A stretch of 64,000 nucleotides of DNA, taken from NCBI GenBank assembly GCA_019245575.1, contig JAFARE010000007.1, positions 1 through 64,000 on the forward strand. The letters are read 5' to 3'. This document shows positions 38,311 through 50,535 of this stretch, piece after piece; the first letter of the stretch is position 1, and each line of letters starts with the position of its first letter. A model generated the notes under the pieces. That model did no database searches, had not been told where the DNA came from, and saw only the letters and a program-made list of their open reading frames with translations. The DNA is from Candidatus Dormiibacterota bacterium. Lineage in GTDB: Bacteria > Chloroflexota > Dormibacteria > Aeolococcales > Aeolococcaceae. A program made the translations under genes and the position numbers.

Positions 38311-39543
38311 ATGCTGGTGGGCGTCGACGTCACGTCCATTGCTCGGGTGGGCGCGGTCGTGGAGCGCACACCGCGGTTCGCGACGCGCGTGTACACGGAG
38401 CAGGAGCGGCGGGTCTGCGCGGGCAAGCCGCAGCGATGGGCATCGCGCTGGGCGGCGAAGGAAGCGGTGCGCAAGCTGTACTCCTCGGGCGGCATGCCGA
38501 TGCCCGCGTATCGCGACATCGAGGTCATGCGCGGGCGGGGCGGTCCGCCGCGCGTGGCGGTGCGCGGTGAGGTCACGCCCATCGCGCTGTCGCTGACGCA
38601 CGATGCGGGCGTGGCGATCGCGGTTGCGGTCGACGCGGCTCCGCAGGCGCCGCGCCTGCTCATGCCCGCCTCGCTACGCCTGGCGGAGCGTCCGGAGGAC
38701 GGCCACAAGGGCACCTTCGGGCGCGTCGTCGTGATTGCGGGGGCGCGTGGGTACACGGGTGCGCCGCGCCTCGCCGCATACGGCGCGGCGCGCGCGGGCG
38801 CTGGGCTGGTCACCGTGTGCGTGCCCGAGTCGATCTATCCCATCGTTGCGGCCGCTTGCCTCGAGGTGATGCCCGCGGCGGTCGACGACGCCGGGTCCGG
38901 GGCGCTGCATCCCGCCGGCCTGAACGCGCTGCGCGAGCGCATGCGCACCGCCGACGCGGTCGTCATCGGCCCCGGCCTGGGCCGCGCGCCGGAGACCGAG
39001 CGCGTGGTCATCGACGTGCTCCAGAACGTGCCGTGCCCGGCGGTCGTCGATGCGGACGCCCTCAACATCGCCGCGGCAACCGGATTCGATTGGCGCCGCA
39101 CGCCGCAGCCGGTTGTGGTCACGCCACATCCCGCGGAGATGGCTCGCCTGGCGGGGATCGAGACCGCTGTGGTGCAGCAGGATCGTCGCGGGCTCGCCGT
39201 CGCATACGCGCGGGAGCGCGGCGTGACGATCGTGCTCAAGGGCAGCGAGACGGTGATCGCGTCGCCCCGCGGTGACGTGCACGTGGACGCGCACCGCGTG
39301 GTCGCGCTCGCCAGCGGCGGCACCGGTGACGTGCTCGCCGGCGTCATCGCCGCAATGCTGGCCCAGGGTCTGGAGGCGTTCGAGGCGGCGGTTGCAGGGG
39401 TCACCGTGCACGCGGAGGCGGGCGCGATGGTGCAGGAGCAGCGGGGCCGCGCCGGGGCGCTGGCGTCAGATGTGATCGAGGCGCTGCCGGCAGCGCAGGA
39501 GCGCCTGCGCCGCGCGCTCGAGTGGCTCAGCGGTCGTAGATGA
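38311..39543 (+). CDS. Fused holo-ACP synthase (AcpS) + ADP/ATP-dependent NAD(P)HX dehydratase (NnrD/YjeF-C)
   Basis: N-term GVDVTSIARV...WAAKEAVRKLYS...LTHDAGVAIAVA; C-term VVTPHPAEMARLAG and ALASGGTGDVLAGVIAAMLAQG. Confidence 0.92.
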   Translation: MLVGVDVTSIARVGAVVERTPRFATRVYTEQERRVCAGKPQRWASRWAAKEAVRKLYSSGGMPMPAYRDIEVMRGRGGPPRVAVRGEVTPIALSLTHDAGVAIAVAVDAAPQAPRLLMPASLRLAERPEDGHKGTFGRVVVIAGARGYTGAPRLAAYGAARAGAGLVTVCVPESIYPIVAAACLEVMPAAVDDAGSGALHPAGLNALRERMRTADAVVIGPGLGRAPETERVVIDVLQNVPCPAVVDADALNIAAATGFDWRRTPQPVVVTPHPAEMARLAGIETAVVQQDRRGLAVAYARERGVTIVLKGSETVIASPRGDVHVDAHRVVALASGGTGDVLAGVIAAMLAQGLEAFEAAVAGVTVHAEAGAMVQEQRGRAGALASDVIEALPAAQERLRRALEWLSGRR

Positions 39544-40603
39544 AGCCCTGGATTCCCCCGGAGTTGTTGGGCAGCACCCGGTAGTTGACGCGGTTCCAGC
39601 CGTTGAAGTTCATCTCCGACAGCTTGAAGTAACCCGCCGGTATGCCGGCTGCGGGGCCGACCGCCTCAACGTAGGCGACGTGACCGAAGGTGGGGCTGGC
39701 GCCGTCGCCGCCGGGCCAGAACACAACCACCGCGCCGGCGATCGGCGTGTGGCCTTCCTTGAAGCCCATCGCGGCCGCGTTGTAGAACCAGTCGCGCGCG
39801 TTGCCGCCCCACGGGACGCAGCGGCGCGACGCCACGTACCACGTGCACTGCCCATACGCGAAATGGTCGCCGCATGAACCGGTGCCGACGTGACCACCGG
39901 ATTGCTGCCACGCGATCTGCTCGTCGATGTTGGCGATCTGCGCGGCGATGACGCGCGCGGGCCCGCTGAGCAGGTTGAAGAAGTTGTTCCGCTGCAGCAG
40001 GTAGCTGAGCAGGCGGTTGCTCTGCCCGGAGAGCTGCGACTCGATCGCCGAGGCCTGCGCGAAGTCAGCCTTGATCTGGTTTGAGTCGCGGCGGATCTCG
40101 TTCTCCTGGGCGGCGACACGGTTGACCATGTCAGTGACCTGCTGCGACACCTGGGTGGCGTTGCGCAAGCGGTCCATGGCCTGGCTGAAGTTGTTCGAGC
40201 TGAGCACGGCGGCGAGCAGCTGGTCATTGCCCGTCGTCTCGAACGTCGCGCGGATCACCTTTGCGAGGGCGAACTTGTTCTGCGCGACCGTCGTCTGATC
40301 GCTGGTGAGCTGCTGGTTCAAGCTCATGAGCGCCGCGTTGAGCTGATCGAGTCTGGCCTGCTCGGCGAGTACCTGCTGCTGCTGCCGCTCGTAGGCGGCT
40401 TCGGCAGCATTGACCGCGCCACCGGCAAGATGCAGCGAGGGTTGCATCGCGGCAAGCTCTGCGATGAGCACGGCGCGCCGGGCGCGCAGTGCGTCGATCG
40501 AAGAGGGGGTCGCTTGAGTCGCTGCCGGGATGGACGCTATGCCGGTGGCCAGAAGTGCTCCGAGACTTGCCAGCACGAGGACCAACTTCTGGCTACGCCT
40601 CAA
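39527..40603 (-). CDS. Secreted coiled-coil + CHAP domain putative peptidoglycan hydrolase
   Basis: PcsB-like coiled coil; YGQCTWYVASRRCVPWGGNARDWFYNA and TFGHVAYVEAV CHAP Cys/His motifs; TTG start. Confidence 0.87.
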   Translation of the reverse strand: MRRSQKLVLVLASLGALLATGIASIPAATQATPSSIDALRARRAVLIAELAAMQPSLHLAGGAVNAAEAAYERQQQQVLAEQARLDQLNAALMSLNQQLTSDQTTVAQNKFALAKVIRATFETTGNDQLLAAVLSSNNFSQAMDRLRNATQVSQQVTDMVNRVAAQENEIRRDSNQIKADFAQASAIESQLSGQSNRLLSYLLQRNNFFNLLSGPARVIAAQIANIDEQIAWQQSGGHVGTGSCGDHFAYGQCTWYVASRRCVPWGGNARDWFYNAAAMGFKEGHTPIAGAVVVFWPGGDGASPTFGHVAYVEAVGPAAGIPAGYFKLSEMNFNGWNRVNYRVLPNNSGGIQGFIYDR

Positions 40604-40721
40604 TACGCTTTCCCTTTCCTGGACGCGGGCAGACTCCGCGAGGGCGTGCGCCCCTTTTGCCCATCGCGCTGGGCGCGGACGATACCGGGGTTCATGCGCT
40701 GGGCGCAACTGGAGCCTTTCG

Positions 40722-40727
40722 TATAGT
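40722..40727 (+). promoter_or_regulatory. Putative -10 hexamer TATAGT, 8 nt before thiL start
   Basis: tatagt-cgtttcgt-GTG; no recognisable SD. Confidence 0.4.
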
Positions 40728-40735
40728 CGTTTCGT

Positions 40736-41791
40736 GTGAGCACCTCGGTGCCGCTGACGGCAGTCGCTGGATGGGCCGCGGGCGGGGCGACGCTGGCCGA
40801 GACTGGGGAGGCCGACGTGCTGCGCCGCCTCGTGGCCGCCGCCCGGGAGCGCTCGGCGCCGGGCCTGGAGCTGCCCGCCGGGGACGACGCGGCCGTGTGG
40901 CGGCCCGCACCCGGTCTCGAGGTCGCTCTGAGCCAGGACGCGATCGTGGAGGGGAAGGATTTCCTGCGGGACTGGACCACGCCCAGACAACTCGGTCGCA
41001 AGGCTGTGGTGGTGGCGCTGTCCGACCTGGCGGGGATGGGCGCGGAGCCCGCCTGGTGCACGGCGTCGCTCTGCGCCCCCGGCTCGACCCGCCTGGGGGA
41101 CGTGGTCGAGATCCAGGCCGGGATGCTGGACGCGCTCGAGGCCGCCGGTTGCGCCCTGGCCGGCGGTGACGTCAGCGACATCGACGGCCCCCTGGTGATC
41201 GCCGTCGGGATCGGCGGCACGCTCGAGCCGGGGCAGGCGCTGCGCCGCGACCGGGGCCGGCCCGGCGATGCCCTCCTCGTGACGGGCGCGCTGGGCAGGG
41301 CCGCCGCCGGGCTGCGCCTCCTGCGCGACAGCCCAGGCGAGGCGCGTCTGCTCTCCGCAGCCGAACAGGCCTGGATCGAGGCCCAGGTGGCGCCGGAGGC
41401 GCGCGTCTCAGAGGGGCAGGCCCTGGTCCGGCTCGGAGCCGAGGCCGGCGGCGATATCAGCGACGGGCTCCTGGCGGACGCCACGTGGCTGGCGGAAGCG
41501 TCCGGGTGCTCAGCGGAGCTCTGGGTCGATTCACTGCCCGTCGACGCCGACCTTCGCGAGGCGTTCGGCGGCGCCTGGGCAGAGCTCGCCCTGGGCGGCG
41601 GCGAGGACTTCGAGCTCCTCGCCGCGGTCAGGCCTGAGCACCTTGCCGCGTTGCTGGCGGCCTGGCCGGCGCAGCTGGCGCCCCTGACCGTGGTGGGCCG
41701 GCTGGGCGACGGCGCCGGGCTGACGGTGCTGGAGCGCGAGGGCGGGGCGCCCCTGCCGGCGCCGCCGGTCTCGTCCCGGCACTACGGGTGA
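40736..41791 (+). CDS. thiL: Thiamine-monophosphate kinase
   Basis: GDDAAVW, LSDLAGMGAEP, GGDVSDIDGPL, DISDGLLADATWLAEASGC. Confidence 0.93.
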   Translation: MSTSVPLTAVAGWAAGGATLAETGEADVLRRLVAAARERSAPGLELPAGDDAAVWRPAPGLEVALSQDAIVEGKDFLRDWTTPRQLGRKAVVVALSDLAGMGAEPAWCTASLCAPGSTRLGDVVEIQAGMLDALEAAGCALAGGDVSDIDGPLVIAVGIGGTLEPGQALRRDRGRPGDALLVTGALGRAAAGLRLLRDSPGEARLLSAAEQAWIEAQVAPEARVSEGQALVRLGAEAGGDISDGLLADATWLAEASGCSAELWVDSLPVDADLREAFGGAWAELALGGGEDFELLAAVRPEHLAALLAAWPAQLAPLTVVGRLGDGAGLTVLEREGGAPLPAPPVSSRHYG

Positions 41792-44552: not shown

Positions 44553-44867
44553 GTGGCTCTCAAGCTCCGCCCCCTGGCTGACCGCGTCGTCGTCAAACCC
44601 CTCGAGCGCGAGGAGGTCACAAAGAGCGGCATCGTCCTGCCCGACACCGCCAAGGAGAAGCCCCAGGAGGGCACCATCGAGGCGGTGGGCAACGGCCGCT
44701 ACAACGAGCAGACGGGTCAGCGCATCGCGCTCGACGTGAAGGTGGGCGACCGCGTGATGTACGCGAAGTACGCCGGCAGCGAGGTCAAGATCGACGAGGT
44801 GGAGTACCTCATCCTCGCGGAGAAGGACATCCTGGCCGTCGTCGACACCAACGGCAAGAAGAAGTAG
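44553..44867 (+). CDS. groES: Co-chaperonin GroES
   Basis: [38 protein letters not shown]. Confidence 0.98.
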
Positions 44868-44872
44868 TTCCC

Positions 44873-46516
44873 ATGCCGGCCAAGGAGCTGCGCTTCGAGG
44901 ATGAGGCGCGCGCCGCGCTGCGTCGCGGTGTCGACGCCGTCGCCGGCGCCGTGTCGGTCACGCTGGGTCCGCGCGGGCGCGCCGTCGTGCTGGACAAGAA
45001 GTTCGGGCCGCCGGTCGTGAGCAACGACGGCGTGACCATCGCGCGCGACCTCGACTTCAAGGACCACTTCGAGAACATGGGCGCGCAGCTCGTGAAAGAG
45101 GCCGCCATCAAGACGAACGACGTCGCCGGTGACGGCACCACGACGTCGACCGTGCTGGCCCGGGCGATGATCGACGCGGGCCTGCAGCAGCTGGCCGCCG
45201 GAGCGTCGCCGACGGAGCTGCGGCGCGGGATGCTCGAGGCGGCCGACGCCGCCGTGGCCGCGGTGCGCGGCTTGTCGCATTCGGTGAGCGGTCAGGACGA
45301 CATCCGCCGCGTCGCCACGATCAGCTCGGGTGATGCCGAGATCGGCGCGATGATCGCGGACTCCTTCGAGAAGGTGGGCCGCGAGGGTGTCGTGTCCGTC
45401 GAGGACGCCCAGGGCCTGGTCACCGAGGTCGAGGTGGTGGAGGGGATGCAGTTCGACCGCGGCTACGTGTCGCCGTACCTGGTCACGGACCAGCAGGCGA
45501 TGGAAGCCGTGCTCGATGATGCCCGCGTTCTTGTCACTGATGGCAAGATCACGGCGGTCAACGACCTGCTGCCGTCGCTGGAACTCGTCATGCGCGCGGG
45601 ACGTCCGCTGCTCATCGTGGCCGAGGACGTTCAGGCGGAGGCGCTCGCCACGCTGGTGGTGAACCGCGTGCGCGGAACCTTCACCGCGGTCGCGGTGAAG
45701 GCGCCGGCGTTCGGCGAGCGGCGTGAAGCCATGCTGCAGGACATCGCTGTGCTGACCGGCGCGACGGTGATCAGCGAGAAGGTCGGTCTCCGCCTCGACG
45801 GGATCCGCGAGGATCACCTCGGAACCGCGGGACGGGTGACCATCACCAAGGACGACACCACGATCGTGCGTGGGGGCGGGACGCGCGACGCGATCGACTC
45901 CCGCTGCCGAGAGATCCGCCAGCAGATCGAGGAGACCACGTCCGACTGGGACCGCGAGAAGCTGCAGGAGCGGCTGGCGCGGCTCACCGGCGGCGTGGCC
46001 GTGATCAAGGTGGGCGCCGCAACCGAGGTCGAGCTGAAGGAGCGCAAGGCGCGGGTCGAGGACGCGCTCGCCGCGACGCGCGCGGCCATCGAGGACGGCG
46101 TGGTCGTCGGTGGCGGTGTCGCGCTCATCCGCGCGATCCCCGCGGTGCAGAAGCTGAAGCTCGACGGCGATGCGCGTGTGGGTGCGACGATCGTCTCCCA
46201 GGCGCTGCGCGAGCCGCTGCGCGTCATCGCGTCCAACGCGGGTGTCGAGGGCGCGGTCGTGGTGAACCACGTGACCGATGCGAGCGGGGACGAGGGCTTC
46301 GACGCGGTGTCGGAGACCTACGGCAACCTGCCCGAGAAGGGCATCATCGACCCCACCAAGGTCGTGATCACCGCGCTGACCAACGCGACGTCGATCGCCA
46401 CGATGGTGCTCACCACGGACGCGCTCGTCGCCGACGTCCCCGAGAAGGAGGAGGCCGCCGCCGGCGGACATTCCCATGCAGGCGGCATGGGGATGGACGA
46501 CGACATGGATTTCTAA
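44873..46516 (+). CDS. groEL: Chaperonin GroEL
   Basis: VAGDGTTTSTVLARAM; GGM-type C-terminus (HSHAGGMGMDDDMDF). Confidence 0.98.
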   Translation: MPAKELRFEDEARAALRRGVDAVAGAVSVTLGPRGRAVVLDKKFGPPVVSNDGVTIARDLDFKDHFENMGAQLVKEAAIKTNDVAGDGTTTSTVLARAMIDAGLQQLAAGASPTELRRGMLEAADAAVAAVRGLSHSVSGQDDIRRVATISSGDAEIGAMIADSFEKVGREGVVSVEDAQGLVTEVEVVEGMQFDRGYVSPYLVTDQQAMEAVLDDARVLVTDGKITAVNDLLPSLELVMRAGRPLLIVAEDVQAEALATLVVNRVRGTFTAVAVKAPAFGERREAMLQDIAVLTGATVISEKVGLRLDGIREDHLGTAGRVTITKDDTTIVRGGGTRDAIDSRCREIRQQIEETTSDWDREKLQERLARLTGGVAVIKVGAATEVELKERKARVEDALAATRAAIEDGVVVGGGVALIRAIPAVQKLKLDGDARVGATIVSQALREPLRVIASNAGVEGAVVVNHVTDASGDEGFDAVSETYGNLPEKGIIDPTKVVITALTNATSIATMVLTTDALVADVPEKEEAAAGGHSHAGGMGMDDDMDF

Positions 46517-46534: not shown

Positions 46535-46666
46535 GCCTCCGCTCGGGGGTGAGGGTCGTTCCAGACCCCGGCGGTGACGCCTCCGGCGTCACAAGCGCCT
46601 CTACTCGCAGCCGGGACAGCGGCTGCTGCGTATGGTCCTGAACGATCCTCACCCGCCGAGCGAGGC
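46535..46666. repeat. Long imperfect inverted repeat enclosing two hairpins, groEL-asnB intergenic
   Basis: Outer arms 46535-46567 and 46634-46666; inner hairpins gtgacgcc-tcc-ggcgtcac (46574-46592) and gcagccg-ggacag-cggctgc (46607-46626). Confidence 0.82.
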
Positions 46667-46729: not shown

Positions 46730-49393
46730 ATGTGCGGCATCTCCGGGTTCTGGGGCCCGCGCGACCGAGCGCTGCTGGAGGCGATGACCCAGGCGCTGGT
46801 TCACCGTGGGCCGGATGACGTCGGCTACCTGGAGACCGACGGCGCGTCGCTCGGGTTCCGCCGGCTGAGCATCCTCGACCTGGAGCACGGCAACCAGCCG
46901 ATGTCCACGAACGACGGCAAGGTGCACCTCGTCTTCAACGGTGAGGTCTACAACTTCCGTGAGCTGCGCGCGGAATTGCAGCCGCTCGGGCACGGCTTTC
47001 ACACCACGTGCGACGCCGAGGTCGTGCTGCACGCGTACGCAGAGTGGGGCGTCGACTGCTTCCGTCGTTTCAACGGCATGTGGGGGCTGGCGATCCTGGA
47101 CGAGCGCGGCGCATATCCACGGCTCGTCCTGGCTCGTGACCACTTCGGCATCAAGCCGCTCTTCTACGCGCAGCACGGCGCACGCGTGCTGTTCGGTTCC
47201 GAGATCAAGGCGATCCTGCAGGACGCGTCGTTCCCCCGCGCGGTCGACGAGCAGCAGATGTTCGAGTACCTGCGGCACGGCCTCTTCGATCACAACGACG
47301 CGACGTTCTTCAAAGGTGTGCGCCAGGTGCCGGCTGCGGCCTACACGGTCATCGACGGCGAAGGCATCAGCGACACCAAGTACTGGACGCCGCGCCTGTC
47401 GGAGGACGGCGACCCTGATCCGGCCGCGTTTCGCGCCGTCTTCGAGCGCGCGGTGGAGCGGCGCCTGGTGGCGGATGTCCCGGTCGGCATCTGCCTCAGC
47501 GGCGGACTGGACTCGTCGTCGATCTGCACGGTGATGGCGCGCCTCCTGCGCGACCACGCGCCGGATGCGGTGTCACTCGGCGACCGCCTCAAGACATTCT
47601 CCGCATTCTTCCCCGGCGATCCCATCGACGAGAGTGCCTACATCCAGACCGTCCTGGAGACCACCGGCGCCGACAGCAGCGTCGTGGAGCCCACCGACCA
47701 GGACTTCATCCGCGAGCTCGAGGCCTGGGTCTGGCACATGGAGGAGCCGATGGTGTCGAGCGCGCCCTTCGCCATGTGGATGGTGATGCGGCTGGCGCGC
47801 CGGCAGGTGAAGGTCGTGCTCGACGGCCAGGCTGGCGACGAGCTTCTCGCCGGCTACGACCACTATCCGTACGTGTTCCTGCGCCAGCTGCTGCGCGACC
47901 GGCAATACGTGCGGTTCGCGCGCGAGGCGTGGTTGCTGCGCGACATCGTCACGCCACTGGTGAAGCGGCGCCTGTGGGAGCGGCGCCACCGCATCAGCCT
48001 GGACTCGCTGCTGCGCCCTGAGTTCACCGCGGGACGGCCGGCGCCGCACGATGACCGCGTGGCCGACGACCTGAAGCTGCGGCTGCTGCAGGACTTCGTC
48101 ACGTACAGCCTGCCGCCGCTGCTGCGCTACGAGGACCGCGCATCGATGGCGCACTCGCTGGAGGCGCGGCTTCCGTTTCTCGACCAGGAGCTGGTCGACT
48201 ACGTTCTCAGCCTGCCCACGCGAGCGATCATCAACAATGGTTGGACGCGGGCTGTTGTGCGCAAGGCGCTGCACGGCATGCTCCCCGAGAAGGTGGAGCG
48301 GCGGCGCAAGAAGATCGGATTCACCACTCCCGAGTTCCGCTGGTACCGGCGTCAGCGTGCGGTGCTGCAGAGCCTCATGCGCTCGCCCGCGTTCCAGCAC
48401 CGTCCCTACTGGCACGGCACCGCCGTTGCCGAGGCCTTCGCGCGCGCCTGCCGCGGCGAGATCGAGGAGAACATGTTCTTCTGGCGCGCAATCAACGCCG
48501 AGGTGTGGATGCGCATCTTCCTCGATGACCGCACCACGTCACTCGATGAGGGCAGCTACCGGTCCGGCTTCGTGCGCCGCGGCGACGCCGACGTGGCCGC
48601 AGAGCTCGGCGGGGGCGATGAGGCGCTCGCCGCCGCGCGCTTGAACTGGGGCCGGCATCTCTTCCTGCAGGACGGTGGGGCCGTCTGGGCGCGGTTTCCC
48701 TTGCGCTCCAAGCTGATCCAGCCCGGCGACGAGCTCGTGCCGGCCATCGCGGAAGCGCTTGTGCCCCTGCAGGAGGCCGGCGTCGAGGTCGAGGACGGCG
48801 ACCTGCTGCTCATCAGCGAGAAGACACTCGCGATCAGCCAGGGCCGTTCGTATCCCATCGAGGACATCCATCCGACGCGCCTGGCGCGCACGCTGTCGCG
48901 GTTCGTCAGCCACGAGCCCACGGGCGTCGGGCTGGCCCATCCCACGACGATGCAGCTCGCGCTCGAGGAGGCCGGCGCGCCGCGCATCCTGGTCGCCGCC
49001 GCGGCCGCGGCGGTCACCCGCCCGCTCGGCGTGCGTGGCGTCTTCTACCGCATCGCGGGCTACGGCCCCAAGGCGATCGACGGCCCGTCCGCGCTGAACC
49101 TGCCGCCGTACGACCGCTGGGCGACCAAGGCGCCGCTCGATCCCGCGGGTGAGGCGCGCCGGATCGCGCGCGACATGTCGGAGCGCACAGGGCGCGCCGT
49201 CGGCGTCGCGATCATCGACGCGAACGACATGGCCGCGGAGGTGTTCGCCACCAGTGACGGGGTTTCCGAGGCGGACGTGCTCGCCGTGGTGCGCGACAAC
49301 CCGCTGGGCCAGTCGGACGAGCAGACGCCCTTCGGTCTGGTGCGCCGGATGCGCGCCGCGGCGGTGCGCGAGCCGGTGCTCGCTCCCGCGTGA
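46730..49393 (+). CDS. Glutamine-dependent asparagine synthetase-like protein fused to CofE-like (F420-0:gamma-glutamyl ligase family) C-terminal domain
   Basis: N-term MCGISGFWG (Cys2), SGGLDSSSI PP-loop; C-term about 48660-49390: PLRSKLIQPGDELVPAIAEALVPLQEAGVEVEDGDLLLISEKTLAISQGR... GRAVGVAIIDAND. Confidence 0.88.
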   Translation: MCGISGFWGPRDRALLEAMTQALVHRGPDDVGYLETDGASLGFRRLSILDLEHGNQPMSTNDGKVHLVFNGEVYNFRELRAELQPLGHGFHTTCDAEVVLHAYAEWGVDCFRRFNGMWGLAILDERGAYPRLVLARDHFGIKPLFYAQHGARVLFGSEIKAILQDASFPRAVDEQQMFEYLRHGLFDHNDATFFKGVRQVPAAAYTVIDGEGISDTKYWTPRLSEDGDPDPAAFRAVFERAVERRLVADVPVGICLSGGLDSSSICTVMARLLRDHAPDAVSLGDRLKTFSAFFPGDPIDESAYIQTVLETTGADSSVVEPTDQDFIRELEAWVWHMEEPMVSSAPFAMWMVMRLARRQVKVVLDGQAGDELLAGYDHYPYVFLRQLLRDRQYVRFAREAWLLRDIVTPLVKRRLWERRHRISLDSLLRPEFTAGRPAPHDDRVADDLKLRLLQDFVTYSLPPLLRYEDRASMAHSLEARLPFLDQELVDYVLSLPTRAIINNGWTRAVVRKALHGMLPEKVERRRKKIGFTTPEFRWYRRQRAVLQSLMRSPAFQHRPYWHGTAVAEAFARACRGEIEENMFFWRAINAEVWMRIFLDDRTTSLDEGSYRSGFVRRGDADVAAELGGGDEALAAARLNWGRHLFLQDGGAVWARFPLRSKLIQPGDELVPAIAEALVPLQEAGVEVEDGDLLLISEKTLAISQGRSYPIEDIHPTRLARTLSRFVSHEPTGVGLAHPTTMQLALEEAGAPRILVAAAAAAVTRPLGVRGVFYRIAGYGPKAIDGPSALNLPPYDRWATKAPLDPAGEARRIARDMSERTGRAVGVAIIDANDMAAEVFATSDGVSEADVLAVVRDNPLGQSDEQTPFGLVRRMRAAAVREPVLAPA

Positions 49394-50535
49394 CCTCCAT
49401 CCCGGGCAGCGGCCTGCTGCGCTGGGCCGAGGTCGACGTGGACGCGTTGCGCCACAACGCCGCGACGTTTCGCCGCCGCATCGATTCGTCGGTGCGGCTG
49501 CTGGTGATGGTGAAGTCGAACGGCTACGGCCACGGCGCCGAGATCGCCGCGCGAGCTGCAGTCGACGGCGGCGCGGACTGGCTGGGCGTGTACACGCCGG
49601 ACGAGGCCCTGGCGCTGCGCGCGGCGGGGTTCAGCATCCCGTTGCTGGTGGCGGGCTGGAGCCCGCCGGCAACCCATGCTGCACTCGTGGCCGACGGCAT
49701 CGACGTCACCGTCTTCGACGCCGCGACCCTCTCGTCGCTCGCGGATGTCGCGCGCGCGGGCACGGCGCCGGCGAGCGTGCACCTCAAGCTGGACAGCGGC
49801 CTGGGGCGCATCGGTGTGCGTGCTGAGGACGTCGAGGGCGTGGTGGCGGCCCTCCGCGATGCCGGCGACGCCGTGCGCGTGGCCGGCATCTTCACGCACT
49901 ACGCGGATGCCGAAGGCGACGAGCCCTTCACGCGCGAGCAGCACGCGCGGTTCATGGACGGCGTGGCGCAGCTGCGGCCGCTCGCGCCGGACGCGCTGCT
50001 GCACACGTCGGGCAGCGCCGCGATCCTCAACTTTCCAGAGATGCACCACGACCTGGTGCGCCTGGGCATCGCGTACTACGGCTACGCGCCGAAGCATGCG
50101 CAACCGCATGTCGACGTGCGCGTGGCGATGAGCGTCTTCGCCCGTGTGGTGCAGGTGAAGTCCGTGAGTGCAGGCGAGTCCGTGGGCTACGGCCGCACAT
50201 GGAGGTCACCAGACGAACGCCGCATCGCGACGGCCGCGATCGGCTACGGACAGGGGCTGCCGCGCGCGCTGTCCAACCGGGGGGTGATGAGCGTGCGCGG
50301 CGAGCGCTGCCCGATTGTGGGCACGGTCAGCATGGACCAGACGACCATCGACGTCACCGGCGTGAAGGGGGTCGCGGCCGGCGACGAGGCGATGTTCTAC
50401 GGCGAGCGCGACGGGGCCCGCCTGGGCGCGGACGAGGTGGCTGCCACAGCCGGCACGATCGCGCACGAGATCCTCTGCGGCACCGCTGCGTGGGTGCCGC
50501 GCCTGGCACTCGAGCACTCGCCACCGGGCGAGTGA
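49390..50535 (+). CDS. alr: Alanine racemase
   Basis: VMVKSNGYGHGAE PLP-lysine motif; RLGIAYYGYAP; GTVSMDQTTIDVT. Confidence 0.95.
   Translation: MTSIPGSGLLRWAEVDVDALRHNAATFRRRIDSSVRLLVMVKSNGYGHGAEIAARAAVDGGADWLGVYTPDEALALRAAGFSIPLLVAGWSPPATHAALVADGIDVTVFDAATLSSLADVARAGTAPASVHLKLDSGLGRIGVRAEDVEGVVAALRDAGDAVRVAGIFTHYADAEGDEPFTREQHARFMDGVAQLRPLAPDALLHTSGSAAILNFPEMHHDLVRLGIAYYGYAPKHAQPHVDVRVAMSVFARVVQVKSVSAGESVGYGRTWRSPDERRIATAAIGYGQGLPRALSNRGVMSVRGERCPIVGTVSMDQTTIDVTGVKGVAAGDEAMFYGERDGARLGADEVAATAGTIAHEILCGTAAWVPRLALEHSPPGE

Follow-up and report, generated by a model that had tools for sequence, protein, structure and literature searches.

Within the window, a 64,000-nucleotide stretch of DNA from a Dormibacterota soil bacterium, one reading frame joins an AsnB-type glutamine-dependent amidotransferase to a divergent domain with the fold of CofE, the F420-0:gamma-glutamyl ligase. 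Both the fusion architecture and the AsnB/CofE-like partnership, which also exists as a pair of separate genes, can be regarded as firm. On indirect, comparative evidence, a role of the pair in the cell wall is likely. Our more specific proposal, a single-chain cytoplasmic amide-forming enzyme that would act on a wall-peptide precursor and replace MurT-GatD, has a chance of being right that falls just short of even.

The frame at 46730-49393 is open throughout, encodes 887 amino acids, begins with MCGISGFWG and carries SGGLDSSSI (Table 1). An alternative GTG start at 46574, upstream of the ATG at 46730, would extend the protein to 939 amino acids, but the ATG is favoured because it places the Cys at position 2, as required by class II glutaminases. 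Pfam searches with the 887-residue protein matched GATase_7 (residues 44-164, E 1e-43), GATase_6 (residues 28-158), Asn_synthase (residues 234-595, E 3.2e-76) and F420_ligase (residues 658-838, E 6.7e-15, 55.6 bits, cut-off 25). The uninterrupted AsnB frame with a CofE-like C-terminus described in the first-pass annotation is thus confirmed. Searched alone, the C-terminal 249 residues matched F420_ligase with an E of 2.3e-16, and a PDB sequence search with them returned CofE structures only (7uld and 2phn at E ~2e-6). The AlphaFold model of the full-length fusion was poor (pLDDT 52), and domain contacts were not read from it. The downstream gene, alr, starts with a GTG and overlaps the fusion gene as first described. 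Two other frames of the window were read by eye: 38311-39543 is a single ORF that reads as AcpS with an NAD(P)HX dehydratase (NnrD) domain behind it, and 39527-40990 on the minus strand encodes a coiled-coil part with a CHAP-like C-terminus, likely a secreted wall hydrolase.

Table 1. Features of the fusion gene and its surroundings in the window, with the Amidase_3 fusions of Bacillota (coordinates within loci)
Feature	Coordinates	Strand	Basis or remark
groES-groEL, upstream border of conserved slot	44553..46516	+	gene order
Class II glutamine amidotransferase (glutaminase) domain, Cys2 nucleophile	46730..47428	+	Pfam; catalytic residues kept
Asn_synthase PP-loop domain, clade of AsnBs linked to CofE-like genes	47429..48514	+	Pfam; tree
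Linker, residues 596-638	48515..48643	+	stretch separating the two Pfam-defined parts
CofE-fold amide-ligase-like domain, divergent subfamily, residues 639-887	48644..49390	+	Pfam, profile-profile, AlphaFold, Foldseek
alr, alanine racemase	49390..50535	+	4-bp overlap with fusion gene
Amidase_3-CofE-like fusions (Bacillota)	L160:9386-11008, L161:8592-10250, L162:9813-11465, L164:8572-10245, L211:9362-11026		

At least 11 other species-level MAGs of Dormibacterota/Chloroflexota, drawn from several studies, carry this fusion as an open frame with 54-76% identity over the full length. This recurrence rules out an artefactual join of two ORFs, so the fusion is not an assembly artefact. The earlier judgement that the architecture is unusual was right, and no paper on the fusion or on a wall role for this CofE-like subfamily was found in our literature searches. 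An AsnB of the same clade in another genome (G099, L089:2881-5466) has no recognisable CofE-like match in its last ~120 residues and may be a decayed former fusion; that genome also has a stand-alone CofE-like gene on a different contig (L088).

The two parts are found together as separate genes as well. One genome of Chloroflexota (G003) and two of Patescibacteria (G365 and G211) carry them as distinct genes, with asnB immediately upstream of the cofE-like gene. Split genes of this kind often overlap. In the tree of sampled AsnBs, all those linked to a CofE-like gene group in a single clade (SH 0.998), whereas their CofE-like partners fall into two separate clades, the fused type (SH 0.994) and the split type together with one further member (SH 1.0). 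Descent of the pair from one origin, with fusion as a later step, is therefore not a simple explanation. Within one genus (g4), a fused gene in one genome (G054) and a split pair in another (G707) occupy the same slot, groES-groEL-X-alr-nitrilase-uvrD-ligA-uvrC; one form has replaced the other in place. The split genes overlap by 4 bp and are 41% (AsnB) and 37% (CofE-like) identical to the corresponding parts of the window protein. Since both forms are found in one slot, they probably perform the same job.

Relatives of the C-terminal domain at 34-50% identity are stand-alone proteins of ~230-300 residues, and a stand-alone gene is the usual form of the domain. With a 13-member profile, the family was detected in 95 of 250 Bacillota and 16 of 240 Patescibacteria genomes sampled; with a 98-member profile it was detected in 20 of 400 Chloroflexota genomes. 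Membership in the PF01996/CofE fold superfamily is significant by both profile and fold. Compared with true CofE, the 98-member profile gave a profile-profile probability of 98.9 (E 2.8e-17), and the best Foldseek matches of the AlphaFold model of the domain (pLDDT 91.1) were CofE structures only (E 4.6e-11, TM 0.58, 20% identity). The first-pass annotation was right about the likeness to CofE. Two fusions to other partners were seen in Patescibacteria: in L150 (9576-10985) the domain is joined to adenylate kinase inside a ribosomal-protein cluster, flanked by SecY-like and methionine-aminopeptidase-like genes, which is probably chance operon packing; in a Staskawiczbacteria MAG (L079:5986-7125) it is joined to a GNAT acetyltransferase, with a MurJ-like gene adjoining.

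Within the domain, D146, D192, N194, N219, P220 and P229 are invariant among 98 sequences, as would be expected for a working enzyme with these as putative catalytic residues. The DxN motif of CofE (D150 and N152) is kept as D192 and N194, and D146 probably corresponds to D109, as read from a gapped alignment; D109 and D150 are what we take to be the metal-binding residues of CofE. A hydrophobic helix at domain residues 113-128 (mean hydropathy 1.4) is suggestive of a membrane contact, but only that. The elements that bind F420 have not been retained. The A. fulgidus CofE motif TDTNGRC, whose residues G153-C155 line the F420 ring and, together with F92, contact the isoalloxazine (PMC10861534), reads IDANDxG in this subfamily, so that G153-C155 are not kept; a predicted helix takes the place of the F92 region, and less sequence follows the DxN motif. 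The C-terminal domain is a distinct subfamily with the fold of CofE and of the N-terminal domain of FbiB (PF01996, TIGR01916) that has lost the F420-contacting elements.

These losses bear on the reading that the domain is an F420-0:gamma-glutamyl ligase or another, folate-type, cofactor gamma-glutamyl ligase, for which the fold and the Pfam family speak. The equivalog model of CofE (TIGR01916, cut-off 180.65 bits) gave 36.8 bits with the window domain and 12-31 bits with the stand-alone relatives. The model of the putative folate gamma-glutamate ligase (TIGR04132, cut-off 350) gave 14-21 bits with the best relatives and no match to the window domain at E 10. The F420 biosynthesis genes that would be expected alongside such a ligase were not found either: in the 2.6-Mb host genome, no CofG was detected, the CofD model produced a weak match of 20.5 bits (cut-off 257), and the fusion was the sole PF01996 member, with no recognisable true CofE. 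At 89.6% completeness, the absence of any one of these genes alone is weak evidence. CofD and true CofE were likewise not found in two carrier genomes from the same family (G054 and G151). Four other genomes (G167, G003, G031 and G083) have a true CofE together with the CofE-like domain. With the pathway genes absent from the genome and the F420-contact residues missing, we reject an F420 role, and the cofactor-ligase reading as a whole is hardly tenable. The first-pass annotation had guessed that the enzyme forms amides in two steps, on a cofactor or on a wall or peptide substrate, and does more than supply Asn. This guess fits; of its branches, the cofactor one is not supported, and it is the wall one that the evidence below favours.

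The glutaminase domain of the AsnB part keeps all four of the E. coli AsnB residues Cys, Arg49, Asn74 and Asp98, the PP-loop is kept, and the score against the glutamine-hydrolysing AsnB equivalog (TIGR01536) is 437.5 bits, above the cut-off of 267.1. The E. coli Asp-site motif YDVTTIR is absent and E348 is replaced by Q. The same losses were observed in many other Chloroflexota AsnBs and in several AsnBs without a CofE-like link; hence we dropped them as proof of a different acceptor. The equivalog score, and the fact that the fusion is the sole AsnB-type synthetase found in the host genome, would fit an asparagine synthetase of the ordinary glutamine-dependent kind, carrying its C-terminal domain as a non-catalytic accessory or regulatory appendage. 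We consider this improbable. The invariance of the putative catalytic residues and the occurrence of the domain as an independent gene in three phyla argue against an appendage. In addition, no AsnRS above cut-off was found in the host genome and GatB is present, so Asn-tRNA can come from transamidation by GatCAB. The AsnB is therefore probably not needed for making Asn-tRNA, although asparagine synthesis itself stays compatible with the data.

Among the stand-alone relatives, the gene neighbourhoods suggest a link to the cell wall. At 74 stand-alone loci in Bacillota and Patescibacteria, the commonest neighbours were flippases of the Polysacc_synt/MatE/MurJ families (11 of 128 adjacent genes), which were missing from the top family list of 128 distant control genes. 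These flippases match SpoVB (TIGR02900): a SpoVB-like gene was located at position +1 in 11 of the 74 loci, compared to three occurrences at all remaining positions (Fisher p ~1e-10, a value inflated by relatedness, since the domain tree places the 11 loci in about two lineages). Six of these SpoVB-like genes converge with the CofE-like gene and are not co-transcribed with it. In five Bacillota loci, the domain is fused behind an N-acetylmuramoyl-L-alanine amidase (Amidase_3), and a SpoVB-type flippase directly follows four of these fusions, the exception being L161. Most Bacillota loci have neither an AsnB nor a wall gene adjacent. Inspection by eye of Patescibacteria revealed a MurJ-like gene adjoining the CofE-like gene in L079 and L081, and a run of mraZ-like, rsmH-like and PBP-like genes just downstream of it in L140 and L141. 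The fused gene itself adjoins one wall gene, alr, whose place directly behind it is conserved in part of the fusion family and not across all Dormibacterota.

SpoVB/Polysacc_synt flippases export polymers too, and QimC, a CofE homologue and the one related lead from our literature searches, belongs to an operon of Streptococcus pyogenes that has been linked to a wall modification of teichoic-acid-like type (PMC13059722). The pair might accordingly be seen as a peptide or glycopolymer enzyme outside the wall peptide, making a small amidated peptide, a storage compound or a surface-polymer decoration that the flippases export. This is rather unlikely, since fusion to Amidase_3 and the distribution of MurT speak for peptidoglycan itself and alr adjoins the fusion gene.

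The MurT pattern was obtained from a survey of 21 close relatives, in which five MAGs with the pair were compared to 11 without it. MurT_C was found in none of the five carriers (G000, G054, G151, G702 and G704) but in 10 of the 11 relatives without the pair (Fisher p 0.0014; 16 related MAGs), and the host genome has no detectable MurT_C. Two of the MurT matches had a GatD-like gene adjacent, as seen by eye. The carriers are 83-92% complete; thus, five chance losses of MurT are unlikely. Together with the gene neighbourhoods and domain fusions, this pattern provides independent support for a function in the wall.

That the AsnB/CofE-like pair replaces MurT-GatD is a testable proposal. Like MurT-GatD, it combines a glutaminase with an NTP-dependent carboxyl-activating ligase, the latter predicted here, and the two systems show complementary presence and absence in the close relatives tested. 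They are not homologous, since MurT-GatD consists of a Mur ligase and a class I amidotransferase, whereas the fused protein is built from a CofE-like part and a class II/PP-loop AsnB. The chemistry that we infer, from the use of a nucleotide and the sequence of steps to the substrate and its product, is as follows. The AsnB part would release ammonia from glutamine and amidate a carboxyl group of a wall-peptide precursor. With a nucleoside triphosphate and a divalent metal, the CofE-like part would convert a carboxyl into an acyl phosphate and couple it to an amine, which may be an amino acid or ammonia. The target would be the stem peptide, probably the alpha-carboxyl of D-glutamate and/or the third residue, and the pair would stand in for MurT-GatD in these bacteria. 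A plain copy of MurT-GatD is argued against by the AsnB having its own activating domain, which would make the CofE-like part superfluous.

Precedents for wall amidation by AsnB-family enzymes exist. AsnB/LtsA amidates mDAP in the wall peptide (PMC8554201, PMC7920481), and the N-terminal 600 residues of the fusion share its family and domain order. The host genome has a single AsnB, as do Listeria and C. glutamicum. The fusion differs by its extra 250-residue CofE-like part and by its position in a separate clade of the AsnB tree, whose sample contained neither a labelled LtsA nor a labelled AsnB of B. subtilis. Following the LtsA precedent (PMC8554201), AsnB might amidate meso-DAP and the CofE-like part carry out an unrelated second wall step, MurT absence being a coincidence in what are few MAG-based data. 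That a fused gene and a split pair exchange places in one slot implies a joint function, making this very improbable.

A joint function in the wall peptide would have a further parallel. Asl, the D-Asp ligase of lactic acid bacteria, is an ATP-grasp enzyme, whereas the ligase here is CofE-like. The proposed logic of ligating and then amidating is nevertheless that of Asl and AsnH, the latter being an AsnB-family member that amidates D-Asp of the cross-bridge (PMC3885529).

F420-ligase family matches of the type described here occur in many bacteria, including genomes without any sign of F420 synthesis. Through its fused and split forms, a branch of this family is tied to an AsnB amidotransferase, and the exclusion of MurT and the wall-gene context point to peptidoglycan. 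It is possible, though we lean towards doubt, that the pair is a second, non-homologous solution for the stem peptide that replaces MurT-GatD, and that the large and misnamed CofE-like family of Bacillota and Patescibacteria comprises new wall amide ligases unrelated to F420. If true, an orphan family would be explained and false F420 predictions corrected, and a new enzyme would be added to wall-peptide chemistry, a field of drug targets.
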